In this document: piece after piece, positions 1-6,108 of the stretch
Numbering within the stretch: position 1 is the stretch's first letter
Layout: the number at the start of each line of letters is the position of its first letter
NCBI GenBank assembly: GCA_948467695.1
Contig: CAOKFJ010000123.1
Span: 1 to 6,108, forward strand
Reading direction: 5' to 3'
DNA from: an uncultured Allobaculum sp.
Lineage (GTDB): Bacteria; Bacillota_I; Bacilli_A; Erysipelotrichales; Erysipelotrichaceae
DNA length: 6,108 nt
Notes under the pieces: generated by a model
Told to the model about the DNA's origin: nothing
Seen by the model: only the letters and a program-made list of their open reading frames with translations
The model's database searches: none
Position numbers and translations under genes: made by a program

Positions 1-1
1 T

Positions 2-1156
2 CTTTCAGCACTCAATACATCGCTGACCGAAACCGCAAACGATGTCGACTCCGCTATTCAGGATGTAAACATGCTTCCGGATTCGCTTGAGACAATTGAT
101 ACAACACTTACACCGCTTGCGACAGGCGATATTGAAAACCTCTCCAAAGACGCCGCAACGCTTGGCGCGCTTGGCACTTCGCTGACAAACGCGACGGGAA
201 CACTCTCTACACTGTCGAGTCATCTCGATACCGCGATCGCGACACTGAACCAGATTTCCCAGAGCCTGAGCACAACCGGCTCTTCGGCAGATTTCTCCAA
301 ACTGACCGCTTCTCTGAAAGAACTGCAGGATGCCGCAGCACAGCTGGACGGCGCAGGAAGCAAACTGTCCGATGGCATGAGCGCTCTGCAGACCGGCCTG
401 GAAAATCTCGTCACCCAGACTTCGGGCGGCATTGAAGAAATCGCCAAACAGTCCCAGAGTCTGAGCGATGGTCTCTCGCAGAAAACCGATGCGCTTAAAG
501 CCGGCGCAGCCCAACTTAGCGAAGGCACACAGAAACTTGCCGACAGCCGCGACACCCTGATCGCCGCCTCCAAACAGCTCAGCGATGCCGCAAGTCAGCT
601 TGATGCCGGTGCCGAAAAACTCTCTGCCGGCGCGCAGGCCGCAAATGCCGGCGCAGCCGCGCTCAAAAACGGAAGCCTGGAACTCGTCAATGGTGTAACC
701 ACGCTGAGCAAAGGCGCAACGGATGTGAACAATGGCATGAGCTCTCTGCATGATGGCATTGTCAAAGCTGATGATGGCGCAAATCAGGTGTACGCCGGAG
801 CATCCGCTCTGCATGCCGGATCCGCCAAGCTTTCCAATGGCGCAGCCGCTTTGCATGAGGGTGCAAGCCAGCTCAACGCCGGACTTGCGGATGCAAGCGA
901 TGGATCTTCCAAACTTGTAAATGGCGCCGATGAGCTCAACAGCGGAGCAGCGCAGCTGCGCGACGGTATTCGAAAACTCGATGAATCCGGCATCCAGCAG
1001 CTGAAAGCCGCTTTGAACTGGGGCGAAGATGAAGTCCGCCTGTTCAGAAAACTGTGCAATGAAACCATCGACTTCAATAAAGAAAACTCCAACTTTGCCG
1101 GCGCGCCCAAAGACGCGCAGACAAAAGTCCGCTATATCTTCAAAACCGACTACTAA
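2..1156 (+). CDS. Heptad-repeat (X-X-X-Leu-X-X-Gly) surface/membrane protein, YhgE/Pip/MMPL-associated type, 5' partial
   Basis: The frame is open from base 2 to the TAA at 1154-1156, so the gene begins upstream of the window; 384 residues are visible. An internal ATG at 71 has no convincing SD and is not taken as the start. From about residue 110 to 330 the protein is made of heptads ending in Leu-x-x-Gly (for example AAQLSEG, AEKLSAG, SAKLSNG, ASQLNAG), rich in Ala, Ser and Asp, which should form a long alpha-helical or coiled rod. The last 60 residues are a different, non-repetitive domain ending KVRYIFKTDY. From memory, similar tails end Bacillota proteins that combine such heptads with MMPL/RND or YhgE-type membrane regions. 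No membrane segment or sorting signal is visible here, so any anchor must lie in the missing N-terminal part. Likely role: extracytoplasmic part of an envelope transporter or secretion-associated protein. The substrate cannot be inferred. Family call moderately sure, function not. Confidence 0.75.
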   Translation, partial: LSALNTSLTETANDVDSAIQDVNMLPDSLETIDTTLTPLATGDIENLSKDAATLGALGTSLTNATGTLSTLSSHLDTAIATLNQISQSLSTTGSSADFSKLTASLKELQDAAAQLDGAGSKLSDGMSALQTGLENLVTQTSGGIEEIAKQSQSLSDGLSQKTDALKAGAAQLSEGTQKLADSRDTLIAASKQLSDAASQLDAGAEKLSAGAQAANAGAAALKNGSLELVNGVTTLSKGATDVNNGMSSLHDGIVKADDGANQVYAGASALHAGSAKLSNGAAALHEGASQLNAGLADASDGSSKLVNGADELNSGAAQLRDGIRKLDESGIQQLKAALNWGEDEVRLFRKLCNETIDFNKENSNFAGAPKDAQTKVRYIFKTDY

Positions 1157-1218
1157 GACTAATGCGAAAAGATGCTCTCCAGCAAAACGGTATCTGATCC
1201 ATTCGTAAAACGCGATTG

Positions 1219-1274
1219 AAAAGGCGAAAGACGCATAGCGTATGAGAAATGCGCAGTGTCTTTCGCCTTTTTTT
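1219..1274 (+). terminator. Intrinsic terminator of the heptad-repeat gene
   Basis: A 14-bp perfect stem (1219-1232 paired with 1258-1271, core AAGGCGAAAGAC) closes over a loop that can itself form a short gcat/atgc pairing. The 3' arm runs into seven Ts (1268-1274). It lies 62 nt after the stop codon and separates the heptad-repeat gene from the protease genes. Confidence 0.9.
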
Positions 1275-1399
1275 GCGTGAGCACAAGCGCTCATCTTTCT
1301 GCCTTCGTTTGTTTGTGCCGGAAATCGATATTCCGCTGCTAACCGAAAAGCAGTCCTGATAAGATTGCGCAATGGTTAAAACGGGCATAGATAAAGAAT

Positions 1400-1414
1400 A
1401 AATAATGATTATCG
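1400..1414. promoter_or_regulatory. Fur/PerR-family-like 7-1-7 operator
   Basis: The 15-mer aaataatGattatcg contains the perfect inverted repeat ATAAT-G-ATTAT. It matches the Bacillus Fur 7-1-7 box (TGATAATnATTATCA) at 11 of 14 informative positions. It lies 19 nt before the candidate -10 of the protease gene, where a bound repressor would cover the -35 region. The pattern is visible; its function is inferred, and AT-rich DNA yields such matches by chance. Confidence 0.4.
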
Positions 1415-1430
1415 GATATCATCAATGTAC

Positions 1431-1439
1431 TGATATAAA
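1431..1439 (+). promoter_or_regulatory. Candidate extended -10 promoter of the first protease gene
   Basis: TGaTATAAA fits an extended -10 element (TGn plus a 5/6 match to TATAAT). No good -35 is present at the usual distance, which is tolerated by extended -10 promoters. It would give a leader of about 105 nt before the ATG at 1553. Confidence 0.4.
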
Positions 1440-1552
1440 GAAAAAATAAAGATGCGGATGCGTGGAAATGCACTGTACTCGCATAGCGGTTCAGACAAAC
1501 AGACACAGGATCTCCGGGACAATGCAGCGGGATCCGGAAAGGAACGACGACG

Positions 1553-3019
1553 ATGACTCGAGATTTCAAGACATTCTTTACAAGCAAGCGGATTGCCGCC
1601 ATTCTTGCCTGCAGCACCATGGCGATAGCAGGCAGCGGGCCGATTCTGGTTTTTGCCAGTGATTCAAATCATGATTCAGCTTTTACTGAGGATTCCATGG
1701 ATGATTTCAGCGAAGGAAACGCTGCAAACGATACAGCGCAGAACATGGATATTGACGATCTGCCGTCTTCGCCCAATGGCACCGTCGTGCGCGATGGCGA
1801 TGCGGTGCGTTATACCTTTAACGACAAGCTTCCTGAACAGGATCTGTACACGCCCACGGAGGTAAAACCGATGGATCCGGTTGTGATCGGGGCGCCGGAC
1901 AACGAGCTCGAATCCGCGCTGCTCGAATACAATGCGCAGAAAGATCCCCGTCTGGAAGTGGTAAGCACCACGAAACTGCCGTACAGCGCCATCTGCAAAC
2001 TGCACATGACCTTCATCAACGAGAATGATGTTCAGGAATTCTATGTCGGAAGCGGCTATGTGATCGGAAAAAATACAATCATGACCTGCGGTCACTGCAT
2101 TTACGATACAGAACATGATCTTGGCTGGATTCAGCACATCACCATTGAACCTGGCAGAACGGATGCCACTTTCCCCTATGGAACACTGACCAGCGAAGAT
2201 GTCGATTATTTTGAAGTCGATGAAAACTGGCTGAAGAATGCGGATGAGGCTAATGACAATGCATTGATCGTTCTCAAAGAAAACATCGCGGACAAAACAG
2301 GGTATCTGCGTCTGTCTACAAATGCGCACGAAGTCGACTCGGTTCATCTGAGCGGTTATCCGGCTGACTATGAAGGCACTCACGATGAAGGCACGCAGGT
2401 CGAGAGCTGGGGCGGCAATATCTCGATGTATGACCGCCTGATTGAATCCGATGTATATGGAAGCGGCGGACAGAGCGGCTCGCCTTTGCTTGATGAGCGC
2501 GGACGCGTGATCGGCACTTTTGCGTATGTATATGCATTTCAGAATCGTTCCGGCGGTCCGCTTATGGATAAAGAGCGCGTATCCTGGATTACGGAACATT
2601 CCAATGTCAGCGATCCTGTCTACCGCTTGTACAATCACTATACCGGTGAACATTTCTATACGCCTGATCGCAAAGAAGCGGACTACCTGATTGCTCATGG
2701 CTGGGATGATGAAGGTCTGGCATGGCATTCGAGCGAAGAACCTGATGCCGTTCCGGTCTATCGCCTCTACAATCCCAACAGCGGCGATCATCACTACACG
2801 ACAAGTTCGCGCGAATACACATACCTTGGCACCAAAGGCTGGAAGAAAGAAGGCGAAGCATGGAAAGCCGCGCCGGAAAGCTACTTCCGTCCTGTCTTCC
2901 GTGTATACAATCCCAACGCGACAACCGGCCAGCATCATTTCACCGAAGATGAAATTGAACGCGACGAACTTGTGCGCCGCGGCTGGAAAGGCGAAGGCAT
3001 TGCGTTCTACGCTGAATAA
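1553..3019 (+). CDS. Secreted V8/BLASE-like serine protease (family S1B) with three C-terminal DUF5648-type repeats
   Basis: 488 aa. The ATG at 1553 is chosen because GGAAAGGA (1536-1543) sits 9 nt upstream and a signal peptide follows directly: a Lys/Arg region, a hydrophobic core (about 14-34) and a likely cut after VFA (35). Residues 36-130 are an acidic pro-region. About 131-345 is the protease domain. The His motif TCGHCIYD (His181) closely matches TAGHCIYD of Bacillus glutamyl endopeptidase; Asp235 lies in NDNAL, and Ser298 lies in GQSGSP. The triad is complete, so active peptide-bond hydrolysis outside the cell is predicted. Cys148, Cys179 and Cys182 could supply a disulfide. The position of the V8 Glu-selecting His184 is Phe313, so Glu preference is doubtful. 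Residues 356-393, 402-439 and 448-488 are three DUF5648-type repeats, probably a binding or wall-association module. There is no LPXTG and no C-terminal membrane segment. The gene has its own promoter candidate and terminator and is the most divergent of the three paralogues. Natural substrate unknown. Confidence 0.9.
   Translation: MTRDFKTFFTSKRIAAILACSTMAIAGSGPILVFASDSNHDSAFTEDSMDDFSEGNAANDTAQNMDIDDLPSSPNGTVVRDGDAVRYTFNDKLPEQDLYTPTEVKPMDPVVIGAPDNELESALLEYNAQKDPRLEVVSTTKLPYSAICKLHMTFINENDVQEFYVGSGYVIGKNTIMTCGHCIYDTEHDLGWIQHITIEPGRTDATFPYGTLTSEDVDYFEVDENWLKNADEANDNALIVLKENIADKTGYLRLSTNAHEVDSVHLSGYPADYEGTHDEGTQVESWGGNISMYDRLIESDVYGSGGQSGSPLLDERGRVIGTFAYVYAFQNRSGGPLMDKERVSWITEHSNVSDPVYRLYNHYTGEHFYTPDRKEADYLIAHGWDDEGLAWHSSEEPDAVPVYRLYNPNSGDHHYTTSSREYTYLGTKGWKKEGEAWKAAPESYFRPVFRVYNPNATTGQHHFTEDEIERDELVRRGWKGEGIAFYAE
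2618..3016 (+). repeat. Three DUF5648-type protein repeats (protease 1)
   Basis: Repeats are encoded at 2618-2731, 2756-2869 and 2894-3016. Each follows the pattern VYRLYNPNSG-(D/E)-H-(H)YT, then about 13 residues, then GW-x-x-EG-x-A-(W/F). The third has a two-residue insertion before HHFT and forms the C-terminus. The repetition is at protein level; the DNA has diverged. The family name is from memory of the motif. Confidence 0.8.
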
Positions 3020-3088
3020 AAAGGATACAAACGGAATGGCAGTACGCAGACGCGAAGAACCTCTTGCGGCTCAAGCCCGGATATGTAG

Positions 3089-3115
3089 TGTCGAAAAATA
3101 CTCTGCTTTTCGACA
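3089..3115. other. Perfect 9-bp inverted repeat downstream of protease 1
   Basis: tgtcgaaaa (3089-3097) pairs exactly with ttttcgaca (3107-3115) across a 9-nt loop. No T-run follows on either strand, so it is a poor intrinsic terminator. It could be a 3'-end stabilising hairpin or a protein-binding palindrome. Confidence 0.5.
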
Positions 3116-3172
3116 GATTGCTTGAAAAGCATCCGAGTTTTCACAGATGCCAATTCTCTTCCTTTCAAAACT

Positions 3173-3180
3173 TGTATAGT
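3173..3180 (+). promoter_or_regulatory. Weak candidate promoter for the pseudoprotease gene
   Basis: TGTATAGT contains a 5/6 -10 match (TATAGT, 3175-3180) but lacks the single base between TG and the hexamer and has no clear -35. Its support is position: 113 nt separate it from the ATG at 3294, exactly as for the candidate -10 before protease 1. If used, the transcript would run through the hairpin at 3194-3224. Confidence 0.25.
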
Positions 3181-3193
3181 AAAAATACATTAA

Positions 3194-3224
3194 AGCCCGG
3201 ATGAACTTTGTCCGGGCTCTTTTT
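3194..3224 (+). terminator. Intrinsic terminator between protease 1 and the pseudoprotease gene
   Basis: An 8-bp GC-rich stem, agcccgga (3194-3201) with tccgggct (3211-3218), has a 9-nt loop and is followed by C and five Ts (3220-3224). It lies 174 nt after the stop of protease 1 and 70 nt before the next start. It most simply ends the protease 1 transcript but could also act in the leader of the next gene. Confidence 0.8.
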
Positions 3225-3235
3225 CACCCAGTGGG

Positions 3236-3251
3236 TAGTAAATAATTACTA
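3236..3251. promoter_or_regulatory. Palindrome upstream of the pseudoprotease gene
   Basis: TAGTAA (3236-3241) is inverted as TTACTA (3246-3251) with a 4-nt AT spacer. It follows immediately after a second small palindrome, accca-g-tgggt (3226-3236). The arms resemble a Zur-type half site, but the spacing is one base too long for the 7-1-7 pattern. Possible operator; no regulator can be named. Confidence 0.3.
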
Positions 3252-3293
3252 TCTTCATGCGTGAAAAAACGAAGAAAGGAAAGGGAAGTTTAT

Positions 3294-4802
3294 ATGAGAA
3301 ATAAACATCCAAAAGCATTTCAGTTTCTGCTGAGCGCTGCTCTTGCGATCGGCACAATCACAGGTGCCGCTCCAATCATGGCGCAGGAAGACACACCGTT
3401 TGACGATACGGTGTCCGCTGAAGAATTCGCAGAGGCATACAGCGAAGAAACAGTGGAAGACGATATCGCTCTGGAAAGCGGCGAAGTCGATGAAATCGTC
3501 ATGGACGAGCAGACCATTGGCGCAGATGACACGTTTGCCGAGTCGGCGAAAGTGGAAAGCGCAGACGAGATCATCAAAAAAGCCCGACGCGAGGAAGATA
3601 TGCGTGCGCGTATGCTTACAGATGAAGGAACAGCCGGCATCACCAACCAAAAAGTGCCTTCCGGCACGCCGCTCTGGAAAGACGATCGTGTACGCGTCAG
3701 CAACACCCGTCAGTTCCCCAACTACGCGATCTGCCAGATTTATGCTGTCTATCAGACAAATACCGGTGAAGAGCGAGTATATGCCAATACGGGCTTCTTC
3801 ATTTCTCCCACGGAAATTCTGACAGATGCAGCCAACATCTATCAGCATGATAAAGGCATGGGCTATGCAACCCGCCTTGTAATTGACCGCGGAAGCGATG
3901 CAAACGGCATTTACTTCGAACGAATTGACAGCGATACGTCTACCATCAGCAGCAATGTTCCCTATGCGTTTATCAATGAAAGCAATGAGCAGAAGCGCAT
4001 GGAAATGGACTACGCGATTCTGAAGGTTTCCAAACCCGTTCTGCAGAATGGCTATATCCGTCTGTCGAGCGCGGCGGGAAGAGATGCGAGAGTTCGCATG
4101 ATCGGCTACCCGGATCATGCGCGTGGGGACTACAGCGGCGAAAACCAGTACGAAGACTGGAGTACAAAAACCAAAGCAGAAGGACGCCTTCTGGAATCGG
4201 ACGTTACCGGTTCCTTTGGACAGTATGGCGCTCCAGTACTGACGGCAGACAATCAGGCGGTTGCTCTGTACAGCTATGACTATATCAACGGATTTAACAA
4301 TCAGGTTCAGTGGAGCGGCGGAATCCGTTTCACACTCGATATCCTCAATGCGATCGACAGTTCCTTCTCCGGAAAAAATACAGTGGAATCTCCGGTTTAC
4401 CGCTGCTACAACCCGAACTCCGGTGAACATGTGTACACCATGAACTATAAAGAGGTAAAGAACCTGGTTCGTGTCGGCTGGGCATATGAAGGTCTGTCCT
4501 GGAGAAATGAAGACCAGGCTGGCCGCACGCCTGTTTATCGTCTCTACAACCCCAATGCCGGCGATCACCATTACACAACGAATGTGAATGAATACAACGG
4601 CCTGCGCAAACTCGGCTGGAGAGGCGAGGGTGTAATGTGGTATGCGCCTAAAGATACCCGCAACTACAACACGGTTTATCGTCTCTACAATCCGAATGCC
4701 AAAAAAGCAGGCGCGCATCATTTCACAACAAGTCTTGGCGAGTACAACGCTCTGGTACGTGCCGGCTGGAAGGGCGAAGGAAAAGCGTTCAACGCGCGCT
4801 AA
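3294..4802 (+). CDS. Secreted S1B protease homologue, predicted catalytically dead, with three DUF5648-type repeats
   Basis: 502 aa. The ATG at 3294 is preferred over an in-frame GTG at 3261 because the purine-rich SD (AAGGAAAGGG, 3276-3285) lies between them, 8 nt before the ATG, and a compact signal peptide follows (hydrophobic 11-29, likely cut near PIMA-Q). Residues 31-100 are strongly acidic. Residues 129-146, from KDDRVRVSNT to NYAI, resemble the mature N-terminus of Bacillus glutamyl endopeptidase and suggest a pro-region is removed there. The fold motifs are kept: GFFISPTEILT, MDYAILK (Asp239) and GYPDHARGD. The His motif, however, reads TDAAN (Ala180, with both flanking Cys lost) and the Ser motif reads GQYGAP (Tyr311). 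With His and Ser both gone, peptide hydrolysis is not expected. Three DUF5648-type repeats occupy 368-405, 414-451 and 461-502. The frame is intact, so it is probably expressed, perhaps as a binding protein, decoy or regulator. It closely resembles the truncated downstream paralogue. Confidence 0.88.
   Translation: MRNKHPKAFQFLLSAALAIGTITGAAPIMAQEDTPFDDTVSAEEFAEAYSEETVEDDIALESGEVDEIVMDEQTIGADDTFAESAKVESADEIIKKARREEDMRARMLTDEGTAGITNQKVPSGTPLWKDDRVRVSNTRQFPNYAICQIYAVYQTNTGEERVYANTGFFISPTEILTDAANIYQHDKGMGYATRLVIDRGSDANGIYFERIDSDTSTISSNVPYAFINESNEQKRMEMDYAILKVSKPVLQNGYIRLSSAAGRDARVRMIGYPDHARGDYSGENQYEDWSTKTKAEGRLLESDVTGSFGQYGAPVLTADNQAVALYSYDYINGFNNQVQWSGGIRFTLDILNAIDSSFSGKNTVESPVYRCYNPNSGEHVYTMNYKEVKNLVRVGWAYEGLSWRNEDQAGRTPVYRLYNPNAGDHHYTTNVNEYNGLRKLGWRGEGVMWYAPKDTRNYNTVYRLYNPNAKKAGAHHFTTSLGEYNALVRAGWKGEGKAFNAR
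4395..4799 (+). repeat. Three DUF5648-type protein repeats (pseudoprotease)
   Basis: Repeats are encoded at 4395-4508, 4533-4646 and 4674-4799. They match the repeats of the first protease position by position: repeat 1 has GEH and EGL-x-W, repeat 2 has GDHHYTT followed by EY, and repeat 3 has an insertion before HHFT and ends WKGEG-x-AF. The triplet therefore predates the gene duplication. Confidence 0.8.
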
Positions 4803-4878
4803 ACAGCAGAACATCAATCTGATTGGATAGATCCAGTCAGAGAGCTTTGTATACAGCTCAATGTTGAAGATTCACTCG

Positions 4879-4915
4879 ATCCGCATGGTCTGTTTTCACA
4901 GATTGTGCGGATTTT
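4879..4915 (+). terminator. Intrinsic terminator of the pseudoprotease gene
   Basis: atccgca (4879-4885) pairs with tgcggat (4906-4912). The pairing continues inward through three G-U or U-G wobbles to tctgt (4889-4893) with acaga (4898-4902), closing on a tttc tetraloop: about 15 bp in all. Four Ts (4912-4915) and CTT follow. It starts 76 nt after the stop codon. Confidence 0.75.
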
Positions 4916-4977
4916 CTTATGATTCGTTCATGACCGGGCAAAGAAAACATGGCAGGAATACAATCGCAAAAATAGAT

Positions 4978-4986
4978 TGGTATAGT
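4978..4986 (+). promoter_or_regulatory. Candidate extended -10 promoter of the third protease gene
   Basis: TGgTATAGT fits an extended -10 (TGn plus a 5/6 hexamer match), without a good -35. It lies 103 nt before the ATG at 5090, close to the spacing seen for the other two paralogues. In the leader, cctgcg (5012-5017) can pair with cgcagg (5064-5069), enclosing a gctct/agagc hairpin (5035-5052) and ending just before the SD. Confidence 0.4.
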
Positions 4987-5089
4987 GAAATCAAACCACA
5001 ATAATGAATAACCTGCGAAACAGAAAGAATAGGCGCTCTCAGATCAAAGAGCAAACCGTCATGCGCAGGGTAAAGGGAGGAATCCCAGG

Positions 5090-6004
5090 ATGAGATCCCC
5101 AAAATCAGCCGCATTTAAATACCTGCTCAGTGTTTTTATGGTTCTGGGCACTGCATCAAGTCCTCTGCCTGTGATGGCACAGGAAGATCTGTCGTTTGAA
5201 GAAGACGCAAATACAAAACACGCAGAAAACGAAGACGTTGGCGCATATGACGTCAGCGAACCGCTTTTCGAAACGCCGATGGATGAAGGCGAAGAGTCGA
5301 GTGCGGCACTGAGTATAGATGAAGAGACGTCCATGCTTGGCGGAGAACTTTCTATGGCGCAAATCGAAGAGGAAAGCGAACAGACAGAGTCTGTGATCGA
5401 GCGCGCATGGAAGACATTCGATGGCAGAACGCATCTTCTGCGCGATGAAGGAACAGCAGGCATTGCGCATGAATCCGTTCCTGCGGGAACGCCGTACTGG
5501 AGAGATGATCGCCGCAAAGTCGCCAATACGAAAAAATTTCCCAACTATGCTATATGCAAGCTGTATCTCGTTTTCGAAAATGCGTATGGCGATGAAGAAG
5601 AGTACATTGGCAGCGGATTTTTCATTTCGCCCGCTGAAATTCTGACCTGCGCGCACTGCATTTACAATCATGAAGACAGTCTTGGTCTGCTCAAGCGCGT
5701 CATCATCGAGCCGGGAAGCGATGCGAATGGCAAACACTTCGGCACAATCGATTCGAGGACATCGAGAGTCAGATTCCAGATACCGAAAGCGTTTGTGAAT
5801 GCGACAGAACCTGCCACGCAGAACGATTATGACTATGCGATTCTGAAAATCGATCAGCCGGTGAAAAACCGCGGGTTTATCCGTCTGTCGAGTACCGCCG
5901 GGCGCGAGGCGAATGTGCATCTGATCGGCTATCCCGGACTGGCCAGGGGAGATGACTCGAAACAGTTAGGTGTTAGTGTTATTTCTTGTTATCCATCGCT
6001 ATAA
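5090..6004 (+). CDS. Secreted S1B serine protease, truncated by an insertion element
   Basis: The ATG at 5090 has an excellent SD, AAAGGGAGG (5072-5080), 9 nt upstream. The frame encodes 304 aa. The signal peptide (hydrophobic 11-29, PVMA-QED) and the block RDEGTAG to NYAICKLY closely match the pseudoprotease upstream. The DNA shared at 3621-3640 and 5444-5463 differs at one base in 20. Residues 31-105 are acidic and variable. His189 in TCAHC and Asp248 in DYDYAIL are intact, so the ancestral enzyme was probably active. Homology stops after GYPGLARGDDS, near residue 282 (about base 5964). The last dozen residues, LGVSVISCYPSL, come from foreign AT-rich DNA and run to a stop at 6002-6004. The Ser motif and any repeats are missing, so the product cannot be an active protease. 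The 3' remainder may lie beyond the element, outside the window. Effectively a disrupted gene. Confidence 0.82.
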   Translation: MRSPKSAAFKYLLSVFMVLGTASSPLPVMAQEDLSFEEDANTKHAENEDVGAYDVSEPLFETPMDEGEESSAALSIDEETSMLGGELSMAQIEEESEQTESVIERAWKTFDGRTHLLRDEGTAGIAHESVPAGTPYWRDDRRKVANTKKFPNYAICKLYLVFENAYGDEEEYIGSGFFISPAEILTCAHCIYNHEDSLGLLKRVIIEPGSDANGKHFGTIDSRTSRVRFQIPKAFVNATEPATQNDYDYAILKIDQPVKNRGFIRLSSTAGREANVHLIGYPGLARGDDSKQLGVSVISCYPSL

Positions 6005-6108
6005 ATTGTATTATTACCGTATGAATCGAAATATTCCTAAATATCTTAAAACAGCCGATTATGCAAAAATGATCGGCTGCACACAGCGCACTGTGCATCG
6101 TAATTTTC
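5965..6108 (+). mobile_element. Left end of a putative IS607-type insertion sequence (continues past window)
   Basis: Around 5964 the protease homology ends and base composition becomes visibly AT-richer. A transposase-like HTH gene then starts at 6021, only about 55 nt inside, as is common for compact IS607-family elements. No terminal inverted repeat is visible, again consistent with that family. At the junction there are short direct repeats (GTTAG at 5965-5969 and 5972-5976, then GTTA) that could be transposase-binding sites, and a GG at 5969-5970, the dinucleotide reported at IS607 insertion points. The exact end is uncertain by several bases, and the right end is not in the window. Confidence 0.6.
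6021..6108 (+). CDS. Putative IS607-family serine transposase, N-terminal HTH only (3' partial)
   Basis: Twenty-nine codons are visible from the ATG at 6021 to the window edge. The segment YLKTADYAKMIGCTQRTVHRNF reads as a MerR/excisionase-type helix-turn-helix: an initial helix ending in YAKMIG, a turn, then a recognition helix. IS607 transposases begin with such an HTH and continue into a serine-recombinase catalytic domain, which would lie beyond this window. No SD is obvious before the ATG, and the frame is open further upstream with only a TTG (6006) as an alternative. With so little sequence, an excisionase or other small HTH regulator on a different mobile element cannot be excluded. 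Confidence 0.55.
   Translation, partial: MNRNIPKYLKTADYAKMIGCTQRTVHRNF

Follow-up and report, generated by a model that had tools for sequence, protein, structure and literature searches.

To our knowledge, few bacterial pseudoproteases have a known job, and MamO and CspC, two that do, both lie outside the V8 family. The present analysis concerns a 6,108-nucleotide stretch of DNA (hereafter the window) from an uncultured Allobaculum sp. (GenBank assembly GCA_948467695.1, contig CAOKFJ010000123.1, positions 1 to 6,108 of the forward strand; C123 among the 315 contigs of a genome that is 68% complete), and within it gene B, which encodes a V8-like protein without a catalytic triad and stands between two relatives, genes A and C. 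The genome belongs to the same genus as Allobaculum mucilyticum, which we take to be the species that appears in publication as A. mucolyticum and whose own array holds a counterpart of B. Our analysis indicates that B is very probably a retained protein without protease activity; the further proposal that this predicted secreted homologue owes its retention to a non-catalytic partnership with the presumably active neighbour proteases is put forward tentatively.

In magnetotactic bacteria MamO carries a degenerate triad and promotes the activity of the related protease MamE, and inactivation has arisen independently in three taxa, from which the authors infer selection for a pairing of active with inactive copies (PMC4794232). 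Going by the passages of that report drawn on here, the pair resembles B and its neighbours in being bacterial and trypsin-like, in joining a degenerate triad to an active relative and in the repeated independent inactivation of one duplicate, whereas it differs in being HtrA-type, with a TauE domain, a magnetosome role, metal binding and no DUF5648. Membership of B in the MamO family was considered and rejected, Pfam (E <= 0.001) recognizing only Trypsin_2 and DUF5648, the latter occupying the C-terminus. CspC is a pseudoprotease that activates the related protease CspB during C. difficile spore germination (PMC4619724); the excerpted account agrees with B in the company of an active relative and in the change of two triad residues, and departs from it in a subtilisin-like fold, different from the one predicted for B, and in its place in spore germination. 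When B was checked for that fold, Pfam returned Trypsin_2 and no subtilase and the model sided with the glutamyl endopeptidases, the fold lists themselves excluding no family.

Set beside the V8 / glutamyl endopeptidase family (PDB 1p3c, 1qy6), B differs in having neither the catalytic His nor the catalytic Ser and in its added C-terminal DUF5648 repeats. DUF5648 has been described as a propeller of three blades, for which a glycan-binding role was suggested, and the known DUF5648 (PF18885) proteins in the portion of that source used here carry the repeats on pore-forming antimicrobial proteins and glucanotransferases, whereas in B they sit on a pseudoprotease (PMC12853789). ChpG of Clavibacter was dropped as a precedent, since its authors, in the part of their report relied on here, argue against a pseudoprotease (PMC11290698), and a DUF5648 endolysin (PMC13379245), also considered, contributed nothing to the argument. 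Searches of the open-licence PubMed Central literature yielded no paper mentioning both pseudoprotease and glutamyl endopeptidase, and no V8-family pseudoprotease with DUF5648 at the same array position in two species. Pseudoproteases as such are already known; B is a V8-family case with DUF5648, in which a degenerate triad occurs in an otherwise intact protein adjacent to a triad-bearing paralogue. The parts of B on which the argument turns are these:

3294..4802 (+): gene B, 502 amino acids, V8-like domain without triad (translation, Pfam, structure prediction)
3654..4349 (+): protease domain of B, residues 121-352, with a chymotrypsin/V8 fold by prediction
3825..3836 (+): residues 178-181 of B, Asp-Ala-Ala-Asn instead of Cys-Ala/Gly-His-Cys (translation, alignment)
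4008..4010 (+): Asp239 (GAC) of B, third triad residue, retained; Asn in the A. mucilyticum counterpart
4215..4232 (+): residues 308-313 of B, Phe-Gly-Gln-Tyr-Gly-Ala, against Gly-Gly-Gln-Ser-Gly-Ser (translation, alignment)
4272..4274 (+, in B): Ser327, present in both pseudoproteases, Gly in the cassette-type active relatives (alignment)
4392..4793 (+): DUF5648 region of B, residues 367-500, three repeats (Pfam)

An earlier note, made from the letters of the window, had read B as an intact pseudoprotease, and translation bears this out in detail: the catalytic His position is Ala180 (GCC, 3831-3833), the catalytic Ser position is Tyr311 (TAT, 4224-4226), Asp239 (GAC, from 4008) is kept, and the two motif cysteines, C178 and C181, have given way to Asp and Asn. 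The motifs with which it had compared B are likewise present in the neighbours, TCGHC and GQSGSP in A and TCAHC in C, the latter gene being cut off before its Ser motif. The frame runs uninterrupted over 502 codons plus stop, beginning with a predicted signal peptide (judged by eye) and a pro-region, and Pfam recognizes in it both Trypsin_2 (34.4 bits, cut-off 27.6) and the three repeats of DUF5648 (PF18885; 153 bits, cut-off 25, residues 367-500). Since each key codon is 2-3 bases away from its equivalent in the neighbours (CAC to GCC, TGC to GAT, TGC to AAC, AGC to TAT), a single sequencing error is excluded as the cause. Structure prediction, which had been suggested as a check, gives B a chymotrypsin-type double beta-barrel of V8-like form with good confidence, matching glutamyl endopeptidases. 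With Ala180, Asp239 and Tyr311 in place of His-Asp-Ser, B lacks the full triad and is therefore to be classed as a homologue of the V8-like peptidases and not as a member peptidase.

Five genomes of the genus were searched, this one included, two of them being single chromosomes (A. mucilyticum strain 128, NZ_CP078089.1, and Allobaculum sp. Allo2, NZ_CP078088.1). A. mucilyticum (locus L075) has three such genes in tandem: the first (TCGHC, GQSGSP) and the third (TCAHC, GQSGSP; 513/515 residues identical to protein P0005) bear the triad, while the middle one is triad-less but intact, with TSASM, Asn for Asp and GQFGAP, i.e. His to Ser, Asp to Asn and Ser to Phe. The product of this middle gene is identical in 511/513 residues to P0006, for which the precomputed Pfam list holds only PF18885 and no Trypsin_2. 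The triad-less copy is thus central in both arrays, B lying between A and C, and the earlier note's own countercheck, namely that all positional relatives might carry a His-Asp-Ser triad, was looked for and turned up this triad-less gene instead; the retention of Asp239 in B, on which the note had also leaned, is real but carries little weight, since the counterpart has lost its Asp.

Genus-wide we count 19 protease-type copies including B (17 from the alignment, one read by eye at locus L080 and one from a further match), and 2 of them, B and the A. mucilyticum middle gene, are without the triad; the remaining 17 keep every triad residue that they cover, C lacking the Ser part and E, a further copy in this genome, the His/Asp part. 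The cassette-type copy of Allo2 (L076) has His, Asp and Ser, with its frame broken between protease domain and DUF5648, and another of the five genomes (G003) gave DUF5648-region matches only. At the cut-off used, 54 genomes outside the genus gave no match. DUF5648 regions are in themselves abundant, with 33 matching places in the incomplete genome of the window, some within one protein and most outside proteases.

The comparison also reached beyond the genus. The alignment has 49 rows, or 46 once B and the A. mucilyticum pseudoprotease (which fills two rows, one for its genome copy and one for P0006) are set aside, and in the rows with a letter at the position His stands at 180 in 45/45, Asp at 239 in 45/45 and Ser at 311 in 45/45, the rows being partly dependent (identical residues in near-same pairs: 513/515, 462/472, 412/437 and 441/488). 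The protease domain is found in 34 of the 120 matches listed (of 2241 found, from 7990 scored candidates), and among the matches listed the triad is missing, where covered, only in P0001, which is B, and P0006; P0007, which is gene C, stops short of the Ser motif. A class-wide scan (71/395 genomes matched, with up to 30 loci retained) brought out no further clear triad-less V8-like protein, as read from the motif patterns of the 16 best frames and one alignment (triad present), several weak or partial matches being left unassigned. On the family-wide scale 10/272 genomes matched, with cassette-type matches at E < 1e-100 only in three genomes of this genus. When the protein search was repeated, the protease region as query brought 3 proteins and an alignment 6.

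The changes in the two pseudoproteases cluster where catalysis would take place, while both proteins for the most part retain the predicted V8-like fold and the DUF5648 repeats. Across eight active cassette-type rows 39 columns are invariant, 14 in an active-site set, which was picked around known motifs once the sequences had been inspected, and 25 elsewhere; B is changed in 7/14 of the former and 1/25 of the latter (Fisher p 0.0014) and the A. mucilyticum counterpart in 8/14 and 3/25 (p 0.0045), against row sums of 0/98 and 39/206 when each of the eight actives was left out in turn as a control. Hydrophobic columns of the close set are retained in 44/44 cases by B and 42/44 by the counterpart, and of the 34 hydrophobic columns defined on the whole active set B retains 33, the counterpart 29 and its active sister 30. 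A less favourable count comes from the 64 non-active-site columns with 75% consensus in the close set, of which 54 are retained in B and 51 in the counterpart, against a range of 50/63 to 63/64 among full-length actives.

A branch codon model, fitted to one fixed topology with the catalytic codons masked, gives DUF5648 a ratio of non-synonymous to synonymous substitution rates (dN/dS, or omega) of 0.06 on the pseudoprotease branches and rejects omega = 1 (twice the log-likelihood difference, 2dlnL, 17.2); on the codon sequences, then, the repeats are under strong purifying selection. For B alone the protease domain returned an omega of 0.03 with very long branches, an unstable estimate. In a neutral simulation starting from the active sister, a mean of 3.9 stops per 360 codons had accumulated at 0.1 substitutions per site and 20/1000 runs were stop-free, which disfavours pure neutral drift of the B frame; yet selection on the downstream DUF5648 could alone keep the frame open, so that an open frame is no proof of a job for the protease domain.

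Whether the triad was lost once or twice bears on how the middle position should be understood. In a tree with the catalytic columns masked, B groups with C, D, E, P0002 and P0004 (support 87/92; D is an intact copy on another contig of this genome), and the triad-less copy of A. mucilyticum pairs with its active neighbour (99/99). The approximately unbiased test rejects a single ancestral pseudoprotease: a clade uniting B with the A. mucilyticum copy fails for the protease domain (p 1.7e-4), for DUF5648 (4.7e-5) and for each of the three sub-regions (residues 121-212, p 0.0055; 213-352, p 7.4e-5; 1-120, p 1.4e-57), these sub-region trees also being made with catalytic columns masked, with long branches meeting in 1-120 and the A. 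mucilyticum pair reaching only 91/89 in 121-212. The spacer 5' of the triad-less gene (L075 6697-7247) and the one before the triad-bearing gene that follows it (8790-9357) are 74% identical over 543 bases, which suggests the trace of a tandem duplication. Because of the trees and these spacers, two separate inactivations of the middle slot are favoured. Alternatively, gene conversion from active neighbours may have replaced parts of an older inactive copy and spared its inactive core, a scenario kept alive by the uneven synonymous divergence along the two A. mucilyticum sisters (proportion of synonymous differences, pS, 0.54 in the protease domain against 0.34 in the flanking coding parts; permutation p 3e-4). 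Tyr153, Ala313 and Ser327 are common to both pseudoproteases, as is an aromatic residue at 311; these shared details fit one loss or two, and the first three, which also occur in 8, 3 and 9 active rows, are weak evidence.

As a non-catalytic partner, B would probably go back to a duplication inside the array, after which one copy lost catalysis, and its sisters would be active proteases. With a signal peptide-like start, a pro-region and DUF5648 in common, B and its sisters would share one destination on export, where the repeats may hold B on the same glycan-bearing surface as the sisters. The cleft of B is probably filled by Tyr311 and Phe308, and the outer surface of the pseudoprotease domain would bind a sister protease or the sister's target, B thereby tuning the site or the strength of cutting by the active copies. 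We prefer this account because of the MamO/MamE and CspC/CspB precedents and the presumed export of B and its sisters to the same place.

A number of results weigh against it. In the protease domain omega is 0.41 on the pseudoprotease branches and 0.10 in the background (2dlnL 7.7), with no rejection of omega = 1 (2dlnL 2.4), synonymous sites being near saturation and the omega ratios hence rough; the end branches of the protease tree are longer for the pseudoproteases (B 0.51 vs C 0.31; A. mucilyticum copy 0.54 vs 0.15); and against the consensus of the whole active set B holds only 13/19 non-active-site positions and the counterpart 16/19, actives with all 19 filled holding 12-19. The two pseudoproteases do not form one clade and so give no evidence of a single, anciently conserved function, the genus sample amounts to five genomes, and in Allo2 the cassette-type copy is frame-broken and the ~2.3 kb examined 3' of the A-type gene contain no B-type gene. 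Gene C is interrupted, and the array may be partly redundant. As for the precedent, activation of MamE requires the TauE domain of MamO, the protease domain alone being insufficient, and in the excerpted text a physical interaction of MamO with MamE was not detected (PMC4794232), for which reasons MamO backs the pairing more than the mechanism.

The same selection results feed the strongest rival, in which B is a carrier of selected, glycan-binding DUF5648 repeats and its protease domain a drifting passenger on the way to decay. The contrast between an omega of 0.06 in the repeats and one compatible with neutrality in the domain is what this explanation would predict, as are the 13/19 consensus positions, and glycan binding by DUF5648 has been proposed in the part of the literature cited (PMC12853789). 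It sits poorly, however, with the close-set invariant positions kept outside the active site (24/25 in B, 22/25 in the A. mucilyticum copy), with the hydrophobic columns retained in both sets and with a fold predicted with good confidence, although such traces may partly predate the inactivation; we regard it as somewhat unlikely. The earlier note's view that B is kept and not decaying, and the dN/dS comparison that it had proposed, thus come out divided: the intact triad-less counterpart, the active-site focus of the changes and the purifying selection on DUF5648 speak for retention, while neutrality of the protease domain is not rejected.

Less probable again is that B is a lectin-like or shielding binder of substrate or ligand, which would occupy cleavage sites, or mucin or cell-wall targets, otherwise cut by the sisters, with no need of the sisters themselves. 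Its architecture and predicted location, the same as in the triad-bearing copies, and an altered active site amid otherwise retained close-set invariant residues would suit such a protein, whereas the cleft replacements (Ser to Tyr/Phe, G308 to Phe/Ala) should hinder binding in the cleft, leaving room for binding elsewhere. Inhibitors of the canonical type bind in the substrate cleft, and serpins depend on the catalytic Ser. A decoy for protease inhibitors of host or competitors, raised in the earlier note, would be served by the predicted V8-like fold beside sisters with intact triads, but both the cleft (G308 to Phe/Ala, S311 to Tyr/Phe) and the catalytic Ser are altered, making this role very improbable. 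Residual catalysis through other residues, for which the retained Asp239 could be cited, is scarcely credible with His and Ser missing, residues 308 and 313 near the Ser changed and the Asp itself lost in the A. mucilyticum counterpart.

Building on the partner proposal, a wider and rather doubtful idea is that Allobaculum has repeatedly converted one copy of a tandem V8-like surface protease into a dedicated non-cutting subunit, the middle gene being inactivated in parallel in two species with an aromatic plug at the nucleophile site each time, to give an obligate active/inactive pair that glycan-binding DUF5648 propellers hold in a mucus niche. If true, MamO/MamE would have an extracellular counterpart in the V8 family. 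A slot that is triad-less in two species offers a natural test of selection for an inactive partner. A. mucilyticum is described, in the portion of the report used, as a mucin degrader associated with inflammatory bowel disease (PMC8409761), and the existence of a cultured strain opens the question to experiment. Around B, the window holds the following:

1553..3019 (+): gene A, active-type protease with DUF5648, triad intact (translation, Pfam, alignment)
3194..3218 (+): terminator-like hairpin between A and B (hairpin scan)
4878..4913 (+): terminator-like hairpin of 16 pairs between B and C (hairpin scan)
5090..5959 (+): gene C, protease of the active type, His and Asp present, ending before the Ser motif
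5961..6108 (+): first part of a repeated element that carries a small open reading frame (6021-6107) and interrupts gene C; edge approximate, set by eye

Besides the motifs already given, A has NDNALIV and C has YDYAIL. Gene C breaks off at ~5960, corresponding to ~residue 281 of B, and copy E, at the end of contig C18, begins at ~residue 280 of B, so that C and E are probably two halves of one interrupted gene. The 29-residue peptide of the element in gene C recurs identically on contig C170, and a Pfam search with these residues gave no match. Copy D, likewise on contig C18, is intact with its triad present and 56% identical to B; downstream of it lies a GNAT acetyltransferase gene, and a 67% identical gene follows the A. 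mucilyticum array, past two transposase genes.

Terminator-like sites number 13 in the window against 7.2 (standard deviation 3.5) in shuffles, a weak excess. A TATAGT-like box occurs upstream of both B and C; a promoter motif common to the two was dropped, the promoter scan giving 3 sites against 6.1 in shuffles. Long antisense open reading frames lie opposite B (520 codons, 3255-4817 on the reverse strand, across the whole gene) and much of A (420 codons, 1676-2938, reverse strand), and are probably a by-product of codon bias. Upstream of A, positions 2-1156 encode a long repetitive protein, probably coiled-coil, and a similar protein, 46% identical over 314 residues, lies upstream of the A-type gene of Allo2 (L077 4561-5940).
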